Source: Dehalococcoidales bacterium (GTDB lineage: Bacteria > Chloroflexota > Dehalococcoidia > Dehalococcoidales > UBA5760). From it: DNA of 6,037 nucleotides. Within the stretch, counting starts at the first letter, position 1. Each line of letters begins with the position of its first letter. The stretch is taken from assembly GCA_028710655.1 (NCBI GenBank), contig JAQTTS010000133.1, forward strand, positions 1 through 6,037, given 5' to 3'. Made by a program: the position numbers and the translations under genes. This document shows positions 84 to 6,037 of the stretch, one piece after another. The notes beneath the pieces were generated by a model. The model searched no databases. It worked only from the letters and a program-made list of their open reading frames with translations, and was not told the origin of the DNA.

Positions 84-140
84 CAGGCTGGAACAGGCAT
101 GCAGTTTACTATTAGTGCCTCAGTTTGGGAGGCCTAGATT
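84..140 (+). repeat. 57-bp dispersed repeat, copy A
   Basis: Plus-strand partner of copy B at 4664-4720, sharing ACAGGCA, AGTTTACTATTAGTG and GAGGCCTAGATT at identical spacing (45 of 57 identical). It lies in non-coding DNA beyond the terminator and points rightward, so copies A and B face each other across the VRR-NUC to helicase segment. A local GCCTC/GAGGC hairpin (117-133) occurs only in this copy. No target-site duplication is evident outside the two copies. Confidence 0.7.
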
Positions 141-152
141 TGGACCTCAGAC

Positions 153-234
153 AGCCACTTTCAGGCACAAAATAAGGGGGCTGCAGTTTTTAGGCTGTAA
201 CCCCCTTATCTCGGGTTGGACTGGTAAAGTGGCT
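153..234 (-). terminator. Nested hairpin terminator at the end of the module
   Basis: The core hairpin is 172-209: ATAAGGGGG pairs with CCCCCTTAT (9 bp), then one C/A mismatch, then TGCAG/CTGTA (5 bp with one G-U), with an 8-nt loop. Reading the minus strand, the stem is followed by TTTG, so the U-run (TTATTTTG) is short but present; on the plus strand the stem is followed by CTCGGG, so termination would be leftward. An outer pair of arms, AGCCACTTT (153-161) and AAAGTGGCT (226-234), encloses the core and overlaps the stop codon of the last reading frame. Confidence 0.7.
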
Positions 235-673
235 AGCTTTTCTGGAGCTTCTTGACCAGTCGTTCCAGGTCTTTGGAGCCTCTCTTCCAGACCCAGCGTT
301 CCTTGGATTCGTGGTCCGGGAACATTTCGCGGAGGGTCTTCCGGAGGACCTTGGGGTCGATATTCAGTTCGGCTGCCAGTTCTTTTGCGGAGACCTCATT
401 GGTGGTGGCGTCAGTTGCCTTGGTTCCCTTTCCCTTGGTCTCTGCCGGGGCGGGGGCTTTCTCTGCCTTCTTGGTTTTCTTCTCCGGGGCAGGAGCCTCT
501 GTCTTGGTGGCTGCCTTCTTCTCGGCCTTCTGGGCTTTCTTGGACTTGGGAGCCGGGGCCTTGGTCTCTTCCTCGACTACCTCTTCCAGTTCCTCCACTG
601 CCTCTTCCATGACTTCCTCGGGTTCCTGGGTCTTCTGGGCTGCCTTTGCTTCTTTCCTGGACTTCTTGGACAT
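233..673 (-). CDS. Downstream in-frame cistron starting at 673: charged Ala/Pro/Lys protein with HTH-like C-terminus
   Basis: 146 residues if translated from the ATG at 673, which has AAGGAGGA 7 nt upstream. The N-terminus MSKKSRKEAKAAQK looks like a natural protein start. Residues 17-37 are acidic (EPEEVMEEAVEELEEVVEEE). Residues 38-85 are a low-complexity Lys/Ala/Pro region with repeated APAP and KKAEK motifs, resembling histone H1-like or other nucleic-acid-binding tails. Residues 92-143 (NEVSAKELAAELNIDPKVLR ... DHESKERWVWKRGSKDLERL) are a compact unit of the kind seen in phage and actinobacterial proteins, with a helix-turn-helix-like SAKELAAELNIDPKVLRK segment and a W-x-W hairpin. DNA binding is likely but inferred. 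It could be an independent protein, the C-terminal domain of a longer product, or both. Confidence 0.65.
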   Translation of the reverse strand: MSKKSRKEAKAAQKTQEPEEVMEEAVEELEEVVEEETKAPAPKSKKAQKAEKKAATKTEAPAPEKKTKKAEKAPAPAETKGKGTKATDATTNEVSAKELAAELNIDPKVLRKTLREMFPDHESKERWVWKRGSKDLERLVKKLQKS

Positions 674-1075
674 TTTCTTTTCCTCCTTTTTATTTTTGAG
701 TCCGAGCCTTGCCAGTTGCTTGTCCTGTAACTGCCTGATTCGTTCCTGCGCTTCCTCGAGTGTCTTGACTGTGTCCAGATGCTCTACTGTGCCATCCTCG
801 TCCCTCCTTATAATTTTACCTGTGGTCTCGTCCCAGTTCCAGCCTCCCTTGGGTTTGTTATCCAGTCCTATCATCTGTATTCCTCCTTCCTTCATTATTA
901 GAGCTATCTCCCGGGCATTCAGTAAGTGGTCTGAGTTGGCTTCCTGGATAATGGCTTTCAGATTTGGTGCCAGATGAGCATAGCGTGTCTGATAGGTCTC
1001 CGGATGCATATTGGCTACTTCCACTAGAAGCCTTCTGCATTCCTTTCTCTGTGAGATTTGATTCTGTATTTCCAT
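233..1075 (-). CDS. Downstream in-frame cistron starting at 1075, unknown function
   Basis: An ATG in the helicase frame lies 7 nt after GGAGGAGG and directly below a promoter cassette, so it is very likely a separate translation start. Its frame runs on to 233 (280 residues) because no stop precedes the next start at 673. The segment unique to it is the first 134 residues, which I do not recognise. Residues 5-60 look helical (RKECRRLLVEVANMHPETYQ, then NAREIALIMKEG). Residues 76-100 contain a Trp/Gly patch (KGGWNWDETTGKIIRRDEDG) like a small beta hairpin. Residues 103-134 are a charged, probably coiled-coil helix ending KNKKEEKK. Its first residues (M-E-I-Q-N-Q) resemble those of the nuclease-like gene after copy 2 (M-A-Q-N-Q), mainly because the shared DNA extends past the ATG. 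No function assigned. Confidence 0.6.
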   Translation of the reverse strand: MEIQNQISQRKECRRLLVEVANMHPETYQTRYAHLAPNLKAIIQEANSDHLLNAREIALIMKEGGIQMIGLDNKPKGGWNWDETTGKIIRRDEDGTVEHLDTVKTLEEAQERIRQLQDKQLARLGLKNKKEEKKMSKKSRKEAKAAQKTQEPEEVMEEAVEELEEVVEEETKAPAPKSKKAQKAEKKAATKTEAPAPEKKTKKAEKAPAPAETKGKGTKATDATTNEVSAKELAAELNIDPKVLRKTLREMFPDHESKERWVWKRGSKDLERLVKKLQKS

Positions 1076-3148
1076 CTGATGTCCTCCTCCACTATCCAGT
1101 ATAAGAGACTGACTGGGATTTGTAAATGGTCTGGGGCCCGTTTTGCCAACTTTATTTTGTGGTACTTTAGTACTGGTACTTTTGATAGGACTGGAGCGGA
1201 GCCCCTTCAGTCTGTCAACAATCTGGGTGGCCATGTCCCCCTTATCCTTTAATATCTGGAGGACGTCTGCGTCCACAGTGCCTTCCGCCAGTATATGGAT
1301 GTAGGTCACTGGATTCCGCTGGCCTATTCTGTGCAGTCTGGCTTTAGCCTGGTCGTAGTCTGCAAAGCTGAACGTGGTGGAATAGAAGATGGCTGTGTCA
1401 GCTGCGGTCAGAGTGATGCCCAGTCCACCTGTTTGAATCTGGATTATAATGTCCTTCACAGTGGGGTCATCCTGGAAGTCAGACACCACTTGCCCTCGGT
1501 CCTTGGTGGCTCCGTAGAGCGTTACTGGATTCCGTCCGAGTGACTGACTGACTTTGCGGATGGCTTCAATCTCTGGCACGAAGCGGGCGAAGATAACCAC
1601 CTTCTTGTTGGATGGCAAGTCCTCCAGTAAGTCCTTCAGGGCGTTCAGTTTGGCAGAGTCAAATTCTTTGACCACCTTGTCCTCAGTAGGCAGGAAGCCT
1701 CCGGTAATTTGCTGCAGCCTGAGCAGCTGGGTCAGGATGATAGGAGCGGTGGCGACCTCTGTGTCTGAGAACTTGACCATGAAGTCCTCTTCCATCTGTT
1801 CGTATATGTCCATCGTCTCCGATGACAGTTTGACGAAGAGCTCCTGGTCTGTGGTCTCTGGCAAATCCAGAGCTTCAGCCTTGGTGACTCTGAAAGCGAT
1901 GGAGTGTGCCTTGCGAGCTAGCTCTTCCAGATTCTTATAGCCGAGAACCTGGTAGCCTCCGTAGCCCCCCATTGTAGCATATCTGTCGCGGAAGCTGATG
2001 TAGCGTCTGCCGAAGATGTCAGGATTGAGGAATCTGTATTGCGACCAAGTATCCAGAGGACCCTGAGTGATGGGTGTCCCAGTCAGAATCAGCTTGTAGG
2101 TGGTCTGGTCACCCAGTTTGAACATGGCTTTGGATTGCTTGGCTCTGCCGTTCTTAATCTTCTGGGACTCGTCTACCACTATCATGTCTGGCTTCCACTT
2201 CAGTAGCAGGTCAATGCAGCGCCAGGTGGACTCATAGTTGATGAGTGCTACCAGAAGCCGCCCAGGAGATGAGAACGTGAGGTCGAGCTTTCTCTGGTCA
2301 TTATCCTTCTTGGTGAGGTCCAGAAGCCTGTAGGGATAATCTGCGTGCTTCTGGAACTCGTTGTGCCAGACTGGTATCACAGAGAGTGGGGCAACCACCA
2401 GTAACTTCTTGACCTGGTCCTTCTGGAATCTGTAGCCAGCCACACCGATGGCCGACAGAGTCTTGCCTGTGCCCTGTTCCATCAGAAGCGCTGACTGGTC
2501 TGCTGCTACTCCCACCTGGAAGGCATCGTCCTGATGCTTGTAGGGCTTGGTCTTTACTGGCAGCTTCTCGGTCTGACCATTGCCGTCCTTGATATTCTGG
2601 ACTGCCTCTATTTGCTTTGCCTGCTTGAACAGACCGACCAGAACTTCTCGGGCCTCAGGACTGGGTGTGATGGTCTTGTCTACCAGATAAGGAAGCAATC
2701 CGTTGAGGACTTCAACGCAGGGGAAGTAATACCAGACTTTCAGGTCTGGGTTCCACCTGGCTCCGTGGATGGCTTTGGCTTCCTCTCTGAAGGACTTGTG
2801 GGAGTGCAGAGCCAGCCGCTTTCCTCTCTGGGATGGTATTTCACTAAGGTCCAGGTTCATGGGCCCTAGCTTGGCTCTAGCGGTCTCTGAGGTGGATTCT
2901 CCAGTATTCTCAGGAGGCTTAATAATCTGATTGTAGTCGATGCCATAGGACTCAAGCTGCCTGATGTACTTCCTGAGCAGCTTGTGCAGAGCCCCCTCCT
3001 GCTTAGGTGACAGACTGGATTGCTCCATCAGAGAGCGGACGAAGTAGGAATCAAACTTGTTGAATCCTACCCCATCTAGAGTTCTGGCACCATCGCAGCG
3101 GCTGAGAACTGCTGCCGCTGCCTGTCTCACTGTGATTCGTTCTGCCAT
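233..3148 (-). CDS. SNF2-family helicase, open frame extended through two downstream start sites
   Basis: 971 codons. Residues 1-100 are an N-terminal region I do not recognise. Residues 104-150 (EEAKAIHGARWNPDLKVWYY) resemble the DUF5710-like 'GARWD..K.WY' unit seen in front of phage SNF2 helicases. The ATPase core follows: motif I EQGTGKT (224-230), Ia VVAPLSVIPVWHNEF, II VVDESQ (DESQ at 326-329 instead of DEAH), III LTGTP (355-359), IV KKVVIFARF (about 515), V QTGGLGITLTAA (572-583), VI QAKARLHRIGQ (600-610). This is a complete SWI2/SNF2 translocase, probably remodelling DNA-protein complexes or forks. The core ends near residue 650. The frame then runs through a promoter cassette and an in-frame ATG with its own GGAGGAGG (residue 692), then another at residue 826, and stops at TAG. 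The natural helicase could be about 690 residues, but no stop codon is visible there. The start uses the TAATG overlap with DUF2786 and a modest GAGG. Confidence 0.93.
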   Translation of the reverse strand: MAERITVRQAAAAVLSRCDGARTLDGVGFNKFDSYFVRSLMEQSSLSPKQEGALHKLLRKYIRQLESYGIDYNQIIKPPENTGESTSETARAKLGPMNLDLSEIPSQRGKRLALHSHKSFREEAKAIHGARWNPDLKVWYYFPCVEVLNGLLPYLVDKTITPSPEAREVLVGLFKQAKQIEAVQNIKDGNGQTEKLPVKTKPYKHQDDAFQVGVAADQSALLMEQGTGKTLSAIGVAGYRFQKDQVKKLLVVAPLSVIPVWHNEFQKHADYPYRLLDLTKKDNDQRKLDLTFSSPGRLLVALINYESTWRCIDLLLKWKPDMIVVDESQKIKNGRAKQSKAMFKLGDQTTYKLILTGTPITQGPLDTWSQYRFLNPDIFGRRYISFRDRYATMGGYGGYQVLGYKNLEELARKAHSIAFRVTKAEALDLPETTDQELFVKLSSETMDIYEQMEEDFMVKFSDTEVATAPIILTQLLRLQQITGGFLPTEDKVVKEFDSAKLNALKDLLEDLPSNKKVVIFARFVPEIEAIRKVSQSLGRNPVTLYGATKDRGQVVSDFQDDPTVKDIIIQIQTGGLGITLTAADTAIFYSTTFSFADYDQAKARLHRIGQRNPVTYIHILAEGTVDADVLQILKDKGDMATQIVDRLKGLRSSPIKSTSTKVPQNKVGKTGPRPFTNPSQSLILDSGGGHQMEIQNQISQRKECRRLLVEVANMHPETYQTRYAHLAPNLKAIIQEANSDHLLNAREIALIMKEGGIQMIGLDNKPKGGWNWDETTGKIIRRDEDGTVEHLDTVKTLEEAQERIRQLQDKQLARLGLKNKKEEKKMSKKSRKEAKAAQKTQEPEEVMEEAVEELEEVVEEETKAPAPKSKKAQKAEKKAATKTEAPAPEKKTKKAEKAPAPAETKGKGTKATDATTNEVSAKELAAELNIDPKVLRKTLREMFPDHESKERWVWKRGSKDLERLVKKLQKS
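681..688 (-). promoter_or_regulatory. Shine-Dalgarno site for the ATG at 673
   Basis: AAGGAGGA lies 7 nt before the ATG in an A-rich context (AAAAATAAAAAGGAGGAAAA), close to ideal for initiation. It also encodes Lys-Lys-Glu-Glu in the open upstream frame. The match could in part be a by-product of a Lys/Glu-rich stretch, so it supports the internal start but does not prove it. Confidence 0.6.
1080..1182 (-). promoter_or_regulatory. Promoter/leader cassette, copy 1, inside the helicase frame
   Basis: Same architecture as the copy at 4208-4310: dyad AGTACCAGTACT (1169-1180), CAAAATAAA, then TTTACA (1121-1126), 17-bp spacer, TATACT (1098-1103), then GTGGAGGAGGACA with GGAGGAGG at 1083-1090. Counted by hand, 80 of 103 positions match the other copy with no gap. 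This copy has a third AGTACC just after the dyad. The likely transcript start is about 1091, so the ribosome binding site would be the first thing on the message. It would supply the two small downstream reading frames independently of the helicase. Confidence 0.75.
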
Positions 3149-3858
3149 TAGCTTAACCTCGGAACGGTGGTTGTCTCCAGTTTGCGCCTGATGGATATGT
3201 CCACCTGCTTTCCTGCTTCTCTGCCTGCCATCAGTCCGTCGATGGAACTGGTGCCTTGATGGACTCTGGCTTCACGGACCTTGGGGAAGTTGACCTGGAT
3301 GTACTCCTGGATGGCTTCACTGTTGCTTACCACCAGAGCCGTGGACTTGACTGACTGCTGCCCCAGAGCCTCCCACTGTTCATAGAGCCGAGCTCTTATA
3401 ATCTGAACGGCTCCCTCGTAGAATCCTCTGCGGAAGACTGGCTTCCTCTCCCAGCCTGTGTATTCTCTGACGGCCTTGACAGCCATCTGGTGAAGCTGGA
3501 TAGTGAGCCAGTGGAAGAGCTCCTGGCATACCTCTGTATTGTGCTGCTCACCGATGAACAGAACTCGATTGGACCAGTAGAGCAGGTCACAGAAGTTGTA
3601 GCGAGCCAGAGCGGAAGCCAGATGAATCTGCCATTTGCCATCGTTCTTCCGGGCAGTCAAGTCCTGCTCGGTGCGAATGATTCTGTCTGACTTCCGCTCC
3701 TTCTCATCTGTCTGGACTTCTGCCATTGTCAGGTTGTACTTGAACAGAAGTTCCTGAGCCTTGGCCGCTGCTAGAGCTGCCTCATGCTCGCTGCTGGACC
3801 TCGAGAGGGCCAGGCATTTCCGAATTATTTCCAGGATGCTTTCTCTGTCTCTAGCCAT
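3148..3858 (-). CDS. DUF2786 domain protein
   Basis: 236 residues. Residues 5-46 (ILEIIRKCLALSRSSSEHEA, then ALAAAKAQELLFKYNLTMAEV) match the DUF2786 signature well: an N-terminal helical unit with a short Ser-rich break before EHEAA. The remainder resembles the longer domain that follows DUF2786 in many phage and bacterial proteins (KWQIHLASALARYNFCDLLY ... FIGEQHNTEVCQELFHWL ... RGFYEGAVQIIRARL). The biochemical function of the family is unknown to me; these proteins are common in phage replication regions and have been suggested to act on DNA. The start is strongly supported by a perfect AAGGAGGT site (3867-3874), 8 nt from the ATG. The stop TAA shares a base with the helicase ATG, so helicase translation is probably coupled to this gene. 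Confidence 0.88.
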   Translation of the reverse strand: MARDRESILEIIRKCLALSRSSSEHEAALAAAKAQELLFKYNLTMAEVQTDEKERKSDRIIRTEQDLTARKNDGKWQIHLASALARYNFCDLLYWSNRVLFIGEQHNTEVCQELFHWLTIQLHQMAVKAVREYTGWERKPVFRRGFYEGAVQIIRARLYEQWEALGQQSVKSTALVVSNSEAIQEYIQVNFPKVREARVHQGTSSIDGLMAGREAGKQVDISIRRKLETTTVPRLS

Positions 3859-4201
3859 TGTTGCGAACCTCCTTCATCTGGCTGATTCTGACTGACTGCT
3901 TCAACGTTCCTTTATAGACCCTAATATCGTCCTCACTGAAGATGACGACTGCAATCAGGATTGCCCGCAGACCATATTTGCGAGCGAAGGACCGCTTCCG
4001 CTTCATGGAAGAGTCACAGATGTGAATCTTCAGGTCTTTGCTCAGTCCGCTCATGGCTTTGACTTCGTAGGCAACTCCTGCACCGAAGTCCAACACATCG
4101 AAGGGAGCCTTGTGGCTAGTGGGGCTTCCGCCGGTTAGCTTTGCCACTGTGGCTTCTCCTATCCTTCCGAGTTGATGTCTGGCTGTCTGATTCTGTGCCA
4201 T
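3851..4201 (-). CDS. Small PD-(D/E)XK nuclease-like (resolvase-like) protein
   Basis: 116 residues. I do not recognise a precise family, but the pattern fits the PD-(D/E)XK fold: an N-terminal helix with GRIGEATVAKL (Glu16), then KAPFDVLDFG with Asp35 (or Asp38) as the metal-binding acid, then VAYEVKAM with Glu46 and Lys48 as the E-x-K pair, and later a hydrophobic strand, LRAILIAVVIF. Small Holliday-junction resolvases and restriction-like nucleases share this order. The basic stretch KRKRSFARKYG (67-77) could contact DNA. The start follows GGAGGAGG and lies directly under its own promoter. The gene begins inside the VRR-NUC gene in another frame and ends by an 8-nt overlap (ATGGCTAG) with DUF2786. 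The alternative is a non-catalytic DNA-binding protein with this fold. The nuclease activity is inferred. Confidence 0.65.
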   Translation of the reverse strand: MAQNQTARHQLGRIGEATVAKLTGGSPTSHKAPFDVLDFGAGVAYEVKAMSGLSKDLKIHICDSSMKRKRSFARKYGLRAILIAVVIFSEDDIRVYKGTLKQSVRISQMKEVRNNG

Positions 4202-4622
4202 CTGATTTGTCCTCCTCCACTATGGATTCTACCACAGTGAAAGGGACTTGTAAATGGTCTGGAGCACTTTCTTCTGGATTTATTTTGGGGTCATTTAGTA
4301 CTGGTACTTTAGTCTGACCCCGCAATTTGTAGAAGTTCTTCTGGAGGTATTTCAGGACCTCTTTGACTGAGGTAACCACCACAGCCTTGCCTTCCGCGCT
4401 CTTGATGCGGTCCAGTTGCAGCTTCTGGTAGTTGGTCACCCCATCCTTATTCTCTGGGGTCTTTACCTCGAACGCGATGAACCTGCCACGCAGACAGCCG
4501 AGGATGTCAGGCACTCCACGCTCTTGAAAGGGCCCGGTGTGTATTTTATACCAGACCCCCATCGGATATTCAGATTTTAGCCTTTGCAGGATTTTACGGA
4601 CCAAATTGGCTTCAGTTGCCAT
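4116..4622 (-). CDS. VRR-NUC domain nuclease with a long C-terminal tail overlapping the next gene
   Basis: 168 residues. Residues 1-98 are a standard VRR-NUC (PD-(D/E)XK) domain: Glu4 in the first helix, GVPD at 36-39, FEVKT at 51-55 holding the E-x-K catalytic pair, and Gln66 in a YQKLQLDRI segment typical of the family. These small phage nucleases are thought to cut branched or single-strand-containing DNA. The start is taken at 4622 because a GAGGAGG site lies 4 nt upstream. An earlier in-frame ATG at 4679 lies inside the leader hairpin and lacks such a site. Phage VRR-NUC proteins are usually about 90-100 residues. Here residues 101-168 form an unrelated, increasingly Ser/Arg/Lys-rich tail. 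Its DNA contains a complete promoter cassette, and it runs 86 nt into the next gene before stopping at TAG. The tail may be tolerated read-through coding rather than a functional domain. Confidence 0.88.
   Translation of the reverse strand: MATEANLVRKILQRLKSEYPMGVWYKIHTGPFQERGVPDILGCLRGRFIAFEVKTPENKDGVTNYQKLQLDRIKSAEGKAVVVTSVKEVLKYLQKNFYKLRGQTKVPVLNDPKINPEESAPDHLQVPFTVVESIVEEDKSDGTESDSQTSTRKDRRSHSGKANRRKPH
4208..4310 (-). promoter_or_regulatory. Promoter/leader cassette, copy 2, inside the VRR-NUC gene
   Basis: On the minus strand the cassette has four parts. First is the dyad AGTACCAGTACT (4297-4308) within a 17-base invariant block. Second is an A-rich stretch, CAAAATAAA. Third is a sigma70-type promoter, TTTACA (4249-4254), 17-bp spacer, TAGAAT (4226-4231). 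Fourth is GTGGAGGAGGACA, whose GGAGGAGG (4211-4218) is the ribosome binding site of the gene starting at 4201. Transcription from this promoter would begin around 4219-4221, giving a leader of under 20 nt with the ribosome binding site at its very 5' end. A second copy with the same internal spacing lies at 1080-1182. This copy would drive the small nuclease-like gene, DUF2786 and the helicase. Confidence 0.75.
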
Positions 4623-4635
4623 GTTTCCTCCTCTG

Positions 4636-4687
4636 GGAGCCCATCGAGAGGCTGCAGGATGACAATCTAGGCCTCTCAATGGACTCC
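4636..4687 (-). promoter_or_regulatory. 17-bp RNA stem-loop in the leader of the VRR-NUC gene
   Basis: The arms 4671-4687 and 4636-4652 pair along 17 consecutive positions around an 18-nt loop. Two pairs are G-U in the minus-strand transcript; on the plus strand the same positions would be A-C mismatches. The structure is therefore complete only in the RNA of the gene's own strand. The 3' arm ends about 3 nt before the AGGAGG ribosome binding site of VRR-NUC, and no U-run follows, so it is not an ordinary terminator. Possible roles are an RNA processing site separating the Sak4/DUF669 message from the next genes, a translation control element, or a protein-binding hairpin. It overlaps repeat copy B. 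Confidence 0.7.
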
Positions 4688-4720
4688 ACTAATAGTAAAC
4701 TACGTGCCTGTTTCAGGCTG
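4664..4720 (-). repeat. 57-bp dispersed repeat, copy B (inverted relative to copy A)
   Basis: Read on the minus strand from 4720 to 4664, this aligns without gaps to plus-strand 84-140, with 45 of 57 positions identical by hand count. The best-kept blocks are ACAGGCA, AGTTTACTATTAGTG and GAGGCCTAGATT; the last two are separated by exactly 11 variable bases in both copies. It starts 2 nt after the DUF669 stop codon and fills most of the gap before VRR-NUC. Conserved blocks at fixed spacing suggest a protein-binding or promoter/leader element rather than a degenerate gene. A small perfect hairpin, GCCTG-TTT-CAGGC, lies at 4706-4718. I do not see a convincing -35/-10 pair in it. Confidence 0.75.
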
Positions 4721-5475: not shown

Positions 5476-6037
5476 TAGAGTTCTTCTCCTTTCATTACTT
5501 TTATTATTTTGTCGAAGCTTGGGTCCAGGATTGAGCCTGGAGTCTTGTGTGTCTTGGGCGACCGTATCTTGGTGATATAGTAGGGATGCGGACCAATCCT
5601 CAGCATGTATCCAGTCAGTTCAACAACCTTACCTCCTTTTACTTTTTGTCTCTGTCGGATATAGGTATTGCCAATGACCTTGACGGCAGCATTAAGCGAC
5701 CTTGCCACAGAGGGAGACACAGCTGGTCCGACTTCCGGCTCCAGTCTTCCTTCTTCCTGTGATACCTCCTCGTCTTCATCAGAAGTGTTCTTCACTCTGT
5801 CTGGTGCAAGGAAGACCACGTGCATAGGCAGGTCTCTGAAGTTCATCAACCAGGTGTTCATCAGACCGGCGACTTCACCCCAGTTCCGTCTCGACAGACT
5901 GTCAGCCTCTCCGACGTTGTTGTCTGCCTTGACCTTGTCTATTGCGAGGTTCTGCATACCGTTCACTGTGTCCAGAACTGCCGTCTTATATGATTCTGGA
6001 TTCTTCTTGAGTGCCCAGTATACGTCTTCGACATCAG
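5475..6037 (-). CDS. Sak4-like RecA-fold ATPase (AAA_24 type), 5' end missing
   Basis: This frame is open to the right edge of the window, so the visible 186 residues are the C-terminal part of a longer protein. The N-terminal Walker A region lies outside. Near the start is a Walker B-like segment, TAVLDTV, followed by a region ending in WGEVAGLMNTWLMNFRDLPM and then HVVFLAPDR. This resembles phage Sak4/AAA_24 nucleotide-binding proteins, in which a hydrophobic strand ends in the Walker B Asp and a later strand gives VVFTAHE-like sequence. The C-terminal part (PSVARSLNAAVKVIGNTY, then YYITKIRSPKTHKTPGSI) fits the same family. Sak4 proteins are known as ATP-dependent single-strand annealing/recombination factors, commonly encoded beside an SSB-like protein, as here. 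A GTG at 5966 could be taken as a start, but coding similarity continues upstream of it, so it is not the real start. The stop codon TAA shares one base with the next ATG. Family call fairly sure; exact activity inferred. Confidence 0.83.
   Translation of the reverse strand, partial: DVEDVYWALKKNPESYKTAVLDTVNGMQNLAIDKVKADNNVGEADSLSRRNWGEVAGLMNTWLMNFRDLPMHVVFLAPDRVKNTSDEDEEVSQEEGRLEPEVGPAVSPSVARSLNAAVKVIGNTYIRQRQKVKGGKVVELTGYMLRIGPHPYYITKIRSPKTHKTPGSILDPSFDKIIKVMKGEEL

Follow-up and report, generated by a model that had tools for sequence, protein, structure and literature searches.

The window analysed here (the whole stretch of 6,037 nt from a Dehalococcoidales bacterium contig) raises the question of why two phage enzyme genes should carry closely similar DNA near their 3′ ends. 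The repeat is real: minus-strand 1182-1080 and 4310-4208 align without gaps and are identical at 80 of 103 positions (78%), while in 20 dinucleotide shuffles of the window no 103-base self-match exceeds 53 of 103. The genes concerned and the two copies are:

233..3148, minus strand: SNF2-family helicase ORF, 971 aa; Pfam helicase domains end at residue 609
4116..4622, minus strand: VRR-NUC-like endonuclease ORF, 168 aa from ATG 4622
3851..4201, minus strand: 116-aa gene behind copy 2 (MAQNQ...), nuclease-like by eye (FDVxDF..AYEVK)
1080..1182, minus strand: copy 1 of the cassette, located within the 3′ tail of the helicase ORF
4208..4310, minus strand: copy 2 of the cassette, located within the 3′ tail of the VRR-NUC-like ORF

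A repeated element at two gene boundaries

The sequence-only reading that singled out these copies placed them inside coding DNA. This is literally so, but both lie in 3′ tails beyond the conserved enzyme domains, directly before the next start codon: the helicase region past residue 609 is a tail with the candidate promoter and internal starts, and the last ~70 residues of the VRR-NUC-like ORF span the control region and extend over the beginning of the gene that follows. Comparison of the frames confirms the further claim that helicase and nuclease read the shared block in different phases. The proposed layout is also borne out, each copy having TTTACA-N17-TAxAxT, 7 bases, GGAGGAGG and a start codon:

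1169..1180, minus strand: AGTACCAGTACT dyad, copy 1; 12 of 12 identical between copies
4297..4308, minus strand: AGTACCAGTACT dyad, copy 2; 12 of 12 identical between copies
1121..1126, minus strand: -35 hexamer TTTACA, copy 1; 6 of 6 identical between copies, kept in the relative L001
4249..4254, minus strand: -35 hexamer TTTACA, copy 2; 6 of 6 identical between copies
1098..1103, minus strand: -10 hexamer TATACT, copy 1; 4 of 6 identical between copies, TATAAT in L001
4226..4231, minus strand: -10 hexamer TAGAAT, copy 2; 4 of 6 identical between copies
1083..1090, minus strand: Shine-Dalgarno-like GGAGGAGG, copy 1; 8 of 8 identical between copies
4211..4218, minus strand: Shine-Dalgarno-like GGAGGAGG, copy 2; 8 of 8 identical between copies

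The N17 spacers agree at 10 of 17 positions and the 7-nt gaps after the -10 at 5 of 7. Beyond GGAGGAGG, the start codon follows after 7 nt in copy 1 (ATG 1075) and after 9 nt in copy 2 (ATG 4201); by position, the leader would be ~16-18 nt. The explanation we favor, with considerable confidence, is that each copy is a promoter of the sigma-70 type that brings its own ribosome-binding site, placed in the 3′ tail of the upstream gene and driving the next protein or proteins.

The start of the 116-aa gene recurs in relatives: of the 23 homologs aligned (of 45 listed), 12 begin with MAxNQ at the corresponding position. A search with its sequence matched no phage record; it did find one distant viral contig (L209), where the DNA upstream of the homolog shows by eye no likeness to the window. 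Rfam gave no match.

Candidate promoter core and dyad

Both cores, TTTACA-N17-TATACT and TTTACA-N17-TAGAAT, resemble sigma-70-type promoters (hexamers near TTGACA/TATAAT, 16-18 nt apart) at 10 of 12 positions each, the type of factor being assumed. The pattern TTTACA-N17-TANANT, which was written after the sites had been seen, has exactly two occurrences in the window, and 200 shuffles contain none. Two unrelated sites in the window (3476, plus strand, and 1470, minus strand) also score 10, and the window holds 8 promoter-like sites vs. 2.6 in shuffles. The sequence GGAGGAGGA-N7-ATG, with up to two mismatches, is not above chance (2 in the window, a number reached by 71 of 200 shuffles). Neither 1080-1182 nor 4208-4310 contains a terminator-like site or stem.

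The copies had been described as a modular early promoter ending in a ribosome-binding site. What stands of this is the sigma-70-type core that ends in a ready ribosome-binding site, and whose -35/N17/-10 pair appears to recur at the same gene boundary in relatives; the AGTACCAGTACT dyad does not stand as a conserved module, neither its spacing nor its presence being kept there. By codon reading it would lie ~9 nt before the -35 in the homologs P0003 and P0008 vs. 42 nt in the window, and the peptide TSTK, which would encode it, is found in 4 of 16 tails with PF[TR]. As conservation is absent, the dyad was set aside as a conserved operator. The "early" timing was a guess, and is not supported.

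Searches of viral_contigs with the dyad...TTTACA...GGAGGAGG cassette gave no match, at the window spacing or with a shorter distance from dyad to -35, and the 22.9-kb record of L001 (which begins inside the DUF2786 gene, without the place of copy 2) holds no further full cassette. A regulon of dyad-controlled promoters is not supported by these searches of viral_contigs and the L001 record, and is unproven rather than refuted. The 16-base core CCAGACCATTTACAAR matched 40 stretches, 6 of them with A2 and T6 of the -10 at N17: one (L227) is L001's own site, four share one other identical sequence, and one is weak.

Comparison with DNA relatives

The DNA-level comparison rests on two relatives, with L001 informative at the copy-1 place only. 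L001 (IMG/VR) is the nearest, 89% identical over 2,277 bases; its helicase tail keeps CCAGACCATTTACAAA and TTTACA-N17-TATAAT, while the surrounding stretch differs by indels. The more distant L008 has TTTACA-N17-TAGAAT at 5700-5728, between a nuclease stop (5638) and a helicase start (5735); no promoter-like site was found in its helicase tail. The helicase alignment comprised 42 viral loci and the best 80 of 279 genome loci; among the 33 of these 122 that were inspected, the long tail is confined to L008 and to L007, which lies on the L001 contig. For the nuclease, the alignment comprised the best 80 of 140 viral loci, of which L129 (on the contig of L008) was inspected.

Repeated small promoter modules at gene boundaries, varying among relatives, recall the mobile regulatory cassettes of T4-type phages, which Arbiol et al. 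2010 reportedly described as a promoter joined to a stem-loop/terminator, and of which a genome is said to carry several, with genes being exchanged at these sites. The two copies here might likewise be mainly recombination sites at which genes are swapped, a reading that is compatible with the promoter explanation but, as the principal account, unlikely. In its favor are the presence of two copies and a ~67-residue segment between the promoter and MIGLDN in the window, absent in the homolog P0001 and with other short segments at that place in P0005 and P0006. Against it, neither copy has the terminator-like stem of the T4-type cassettes, the L001 record (without the copy-2 region) has no further full copy, and there are just two copies in 6 kb.

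It is also rather improbable that the copies are a relic of segmental duplication or gene conversion with no present function. The ungapped likeness over 103 bp would fit this, as would P0001, which lies on a 39-kb contig, is 98% identical in the helicase and lacks the segment MEIQNQ...MKEGG, its right half differing there; this stretch is therefore rearranging. A relic accounts for the likeness, however, not for the conservation: relatives that do not share the 103-bp likeness still have the promoter core and pairs of AGGAGG and start at these boundaries. For the likeness itself, the preferred reading is a duplication, or gene conversion, between two promoter sites.

Codon-level conservation in protein relatives

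More relatives can be compared through what their codons permit, and here too the DNA rather than the protein seems to be kept, as had been suggested: the -35/N17/-10 arrangement recurs both in the DNA of L001 and L008 and, at the codon level, in tails. The codons of all 15 distinct PFT/PFR helicase tails permit TANNNT at N17 (the -35 being fixed by PF[TR]), vs. 2 of 15 at N16, none at N18, and at most 7 at any other spacing from 8 to 30. The HLQ nuclease tails fit N17 in 7 of 7 cases, and fit N24 in 7 of 7 as well. Back-translation to TTTACA, N17 and at least 5 of 6 bases of TATAAT finds 12 places in 1,612 tail codons vs. 1 in 13,072 core codons, counted over 22 helicases, a set made up of the window and the 21 homologs that have both anchor and tail; the 99 other homologs listed give 13 places in 68,906 codons, of which 12 fall by position in cores and 1 (P0029) in a tail. 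The proteins used for this codon inference are mostly unnamed; since they share ancestry, and several are nearly identical, these counts are not independent.

The promoter-like segment is absent in 8 of 26 anchored helicases (P0004, P0016, P0022, P0037, P0060, P0071, P0073, P0079); in this list, "the last four but two" end at the place of the segment. The 26 are the window and 25 of 120 homologs listed, the other 95 being covered by the back-translation scan alone. HLQ is present in 7 of 19 nuclease sequences, including the window; P0122, P0123, P0129, and P0130 have a tail without it, and P0131-P0138 have no tail at all.

Such agreement might instead arise if the tail peptides (PFT..., HLQ...VES) were conserved protein motifs, for example for binding a partner, with the likeness to a promoter as a by-product. 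PFT is indeed found in 15 of 16 PF[TR] tails, and HLQ-x5-[VI]ES in 7 of 19 nuclease sequences. However, this DNA yields unrelated peptides in three different frames, the -35 being read as FT, as IYK (P0007) and as HLQ (nuclease tails). The residues over the -10 are chemically mixed (D/L/F/Y; I/R/M/K/S/N; I/L/M/F) yet agree in the base they allow, permitting xxT-Axx-xTx in 16 of 16 tails, and L001 keeps exact hexamers amid an indel-rich stretch. Conserved peptides are thus a very improbable source of the pattern.

Internal starts and predicted C-terminal products

The sequence-only reading missed that the helicase copy opens onto in-frame starts. Within the helicase ORF of the window, only three in-frame starts (1075, 874, and 673) have a perfect AGGAGG 5-12 nt upstream, the actual spacing being 7-8 nt; the products predicted from them use the helicase frame and stop:

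233..1075, minus strand: predicted C-terminal product, 280 aa, from ATG 1075
233..874, minus strand: predicted internal product MIGLDN..., 213 aa, from ATG 874, AGGAGG 7 nt upstream
233..673, minus strand: predicted internal product MSKKSRK..., 146 aa, from ATG 673, AGGAGG 8 nt upstream

At the place matching ATG 874, L001 has TTG with AGGAGG, and starts similar to ATG 673, also with AGGAGG, are found in L001 (156 aa) and L008 (140 aa). In 67 long-tailed helicases, Shine-Dalgarno-compatible Met codons number 54 of 195 in tails vs. 7 of 639 in cores, an excess which suggests that the helicase gene probably also makes C-terminal proteins. Among the 49 proteins with such a Met in the tail, 37 are without the PF[TR] segment; the promoter is therefore not general. 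That the long ORF is an artefact of assembly or sequencing, fusing separate genes, can be rejected with near certainty: the three internal starts with good ribosome sites do resemble separate genes, and P0007 stops soon past the promoter-like segment, but L001, P0001, and many other homologs listed are similarly fused.

If both copies are promoters with built-in ribosome-binding sites, the upstream reading frames would have stayed open through them, and the tails of both upstream proteins would be largely a translated shadow of control DNA. Copy 2 would give a short-leader message for the 116-aa nuclease-like gene, followed by the DUF2786 and helicase genes. From copy 1 we infer a message within the helicase gene, yielding one to three C-terminal proteins (from ATG 1075, 874, and 673) made beside the full-length helicase.

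A broader proposal, on which we are evenly divided, is that a large family of phage SNF2 helicase genes has two outputs: the full-length protein with a C-terminal, probably DNA-binding tail, and the tail alone. The latter would be made by way of internal ribosome sites and, in one clade, also of a separate promoter lying within the open frame. The listed helicases are ~43-98% identical; a frame staying open through such signals over deep divergence would mean that selection acts on the fusion and on the separate short form alike. The role of the short form may be to adjust helicase dose or loading, or to regulate these promoters.

Pfam gives no match for the MEIQNQ and MIGLDN pieces, and only matches below the cut-offs for the last 76 helicase residues. 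The predicted structure of these 76 residues has a pLDDT of 69 and a pTM of 0.45, with a best PDB match at E 0.35 (RacA, then pSK1 Par DNA-binding domains). We lean toward a last domain of helix-turn-helix type, perhaps DNA binding; this is a lean, not a result.

Comparison with known systems

The arrangement appears to be a variation on known embedded promoters and in-frame internal starts; no earlier report of it was among the matches listed in the literature searched, which covered few subscription papers. If the promoter explanation is true, one DNA stretch would serve as both code and control, and the control DNA would leave a peptide shadow readable from protein databases alone, with residues that agree in an allowed base, across frames, betraying the promoter. 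This would offer a route to embedded promoters and internal starts in protein sets without DNA, and suggests that separate C-terminal proteins are concealed within the helicase annotations of this phage family.

Genes for two-polypeptide phage endolysins use an in-frame internal translation start, several of the short forms being the C-terminal binding part alone (PMC9430671). Here the gene encodes an SNF2 helicase instead, the internal starts number up to three, one clade has a promoter within the frame as well, and the two products are predicted. Embedded promoters are known from phage T4, for example those of gene 32 inside segG (PMC2988022). The likeness is that the promoter of the next gene lies within the coding DNA or 3′ region of the preceding one; the examples given for T4 belong to the middle and late classes and are linked to homing endonucleases. 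Unlike in those, the frame in the window continues through promoter, ribosome site and start, and at copy 1 it leads, without a change of frame, into the next protein.

Cluster K mycobacteriophages have many copies of SAS/ESAS repeats directly adjoining start codons, and 17-bp imperfect repeats beside SAS (PMC3203893). They too are repeated sequences tied to translation starts, partly with upstream inverted repeats, but in the window there are two copies, the dyad is 12 bp long and lies ~95 nt ahead of the start, and the core is sigma-70-like. Finally, the recX promoter of Mycobacterium tuberculosis lies inside recA and is lost in a relative through a change in the -10 (PMC3062782). There, too, a promoter within a recombination gene drives an overlapping downstream gene, but the case is bacterial, with a single site and another gene family.

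Repeated promoter-like blocks within genes

The 103-bp ungapped repeat proposed by the sequence-only reading stands, with 80 of 103 positions identical and a best of 53 in 20 dinucleotide shuffles. The features concerned are:

Minus strand, in gene order: Sak4-like AAA protein, DUF669/SSB-like protein, VRR-NUC-like endonuclease, 116-aa protein, DUF2786 protein, SNF2 helicase
4310-4208, minus strand: copy 2, within the nuclease tail, ending six bases upstream of ATG 4201 (116-aa gene)
3851-4201, minus strand: 116-aa protein
1182-1080, minus strand: copy 1, within the helicase tail, ending four bases upstream of ATG 1075, which is in the helicase frame
875-1075, minus strand: MEIQNQ segment of the helicase, about 67 residues between copy 1 and the MIGLDN segment

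Since the copies end directly before ATG 1075 and ATG 4201, both lie at gene boundaries, the upstream frame nonetheless remaining open throughout. Identity is concentrated in the dyad (12/12), the −35 (TTTACA, 6/6) and the Shine-Dalgarno-like GGAGGAGG (8/8). The variable bases had been placed mostly in spacers; this holds for the promoter spacer (10/17 identical) and the upstream spacer (15/23), but the −10 varies too (4/6). The block is indeed read in different phases by helicase and nuclease, as had been claimed.

The window contains two instances of TTTACA-N17-TANANT, a pattern composed once the sites were known, whereas 200 shuffles yield none. A looser scan gives 8 promoter-like sites (2.6 in shuffles); two of the 8 are unrelated to the copies yet, like them, score 10/12. 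With mismatches allowed, GGAGGAGGA-N7-ATG is no more frequent in the window than expected by chance.

The VRR-NUC label is based on a PHROG endonuclease family (1.9e-17); Pfam VRR_NUC falls under its cut-off (E 0.022). For the 116-aa protein, 45 proteins are listed at E ≤1e-5, the window's own among them, and 12 of 23 aligned homologs have a MAxNQ start at the ATG 4201 residue. It matches no PHROG family at 0.01, and in Pfam only DUF3981, below cut-off (E 0.064); by eye, its FDVxDF...AYEVK motif resembles a PD-(D/E)XK nuclease.

Promoter elements permitted by homologous proteins

Beyond L001 and L008, two viral-contig relatives with DNA, helicase homologs were available as proteins only (best 120 of 954), so that the test concerns the DNA permitted by codons; because the homologs share ancestry, its counts are not probabilities. 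A FYSTTFS-type anchor located the tail in 25 of the best 120 homologs and in the window's protein. Sixteen of these 26 helicases have PF[TR], the peptide encoded across the −35, past the helicase domain; in two (P0007, P0017) a similar segment is read in a different frame, and eight have no PF[TR]-like segment.

In the 22 tailed anchored helicases, codons permit TTTACA-N17 followed by at least 5/6 of TATAAT at 12 sites among 1,612 tail codons, vs. one among 13,072 core codons. The 99 other listed homologs have 13 such sites among 68,906 codons, all of them in cores but for one in the tail of P0029. Ten of the 22 lack the strict match: P0001, P0013, P0018 and P0114 have a weaker −10 beside PFT, in P0003 the peptide is PFR, in P0017 the −35 would be TGGACA, and P0004, P0016, P0022 and P0037 are without any such segment.

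Spacings of 8 to 30 were compared in the 16 PF[TR] tails, 15 of them distinct, with the −35 set by that peptide. Codons permit TANNNT at N17 in each of the 15 distinct tails, at N16 in two, at N14, N18 and N20 in none, and at remaining spacings in at most seven (N22); P0007 and P0017 are compatible at N17, not at N16 or N18. Nuclease tails with HLQ, their peptide across the −35, are compatible at N17 in 7/7, and likewise at N24, because the peptides resemble one another. The −10 residues of the 16 PF[TR] tails (D/L/F/Y, then I/R/M/K/S/N, then I/L/M/F) are chemically mixed, yet all permit T, A and T, and the −35 DNA is read in three frames across homologs (FT, IYK, HLQ). TSTK, the peptide that would encode the dyad, is present in 4 of the 16.

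Internal starts and a possible mechanism

The window's helicase frame has a perfect AGGAGG 5-12 nt upstream of exactly three in-frame starts (ATG 1075, 874 and 673), all downstream of the putative copy-1 promoter; L001 has three such starts and L008 two, every one in the helicase tail. Among 67 long-tailed helicases from the window and the best 120 of 954 homologs, several of them nearly identical, AGGAGG (permitted at 5-10 nt) is compatible with 54 of 195 tail methionines vs. 7 of 639 in cores. At least one compatible tail methionine is found in 49 of the 67, and none in 18; the peptides upstream are mostly GGxxxM-like or KE[DE]xxM-like, one DNA word in two frames. PF[TR] is missing from 37 of the 49, so the predicted internal ribosome site is more widespread than the promoter, which belongs to the window's closest clade.

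Assuming a sigma-70-type factor in the host, both copies probably function as promoters that bring their own ribosome site, and C-terminal helicase products would arise from copy 1. The component features are each known singly: passages in the literature describe promoters embedded in T4 genes (PMC2988022) and in recA (PMC3062782), in-frame two-polypeptide genes (PMC9430671) and repeats linked to starts (PMC3203893). Among the papers listed in the literature searches, we found none that reports, for this SNF2 helicase family, a promoter kept within an open frame running on into the next protein.

Relatives and the origin of the copies

DNA-level comparison covers L001 and L008. L001 (IMG/VR), 89% identical to the window across 2,277 bases, has CCAGACCATTTACAAAGGGCCCTCAGTCCCTTATAAT, that is TTTACA-N17-TATAAT, at the copy-1 place, with several indels around it; GGAGGAGG is absent there, and a different AGGAGG precedes the next start. 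Its record starts within the DUF2786 gene, limiting the comparison to the copy-1 place, with the copy-2 place outside the record. The L008 helicase tail has no promoter-like site; TTTACA-N17-TAGAAT lies between its nuclease stop and helicase start, so the post-nuclease site occurs also as a plain intergenic promoter-like site.

Judged by peptides, six nuclease homologs (P0121, P0124-P0128) have their own version of the −35 and −10, as do helicase tails; in several nuclease homologs DGTES overlaps the next start. The P0001 helicase, 98% identical to the window's yet 63 residues shorter, lacks the MEIQNQ segment (no match in a Pfam search), and the right half of copy 1 differs. This suggests that copy 1 acquired its right half, and with it the new start, from copy-2-like sequence via duplication or gene conversion.

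Other repeats

A 57-bp element, CAGCCTG.AACAGGCA..AGTTTACTATTAGTG...GAGGCCTAGATT, has two inverted copies in the window, in the gap past the helicase gene (84-140, plus strand) and immediately upstream of the nuclease gene (4664-4720, minus strand), and is also in L001 (about 3148-3204, minus strand). Adjoining it is a GGGGGCTGCAG...TGTAACCCCC stretch (window about 170-215, plus strand; L001 about 3079-3120), which by eye resembles a two-way terminator and is absent from the terminator-scan results; at this stretch in L001, the helicase abuts opposite-strand genes, structural by eye. Other viral contigs (L213, L228, L241, L245) share an identical promoter-like CCAGACCATTTACA-N17-TATAAT upstream of GGAAATTCGCAATG, apparently unrelated.
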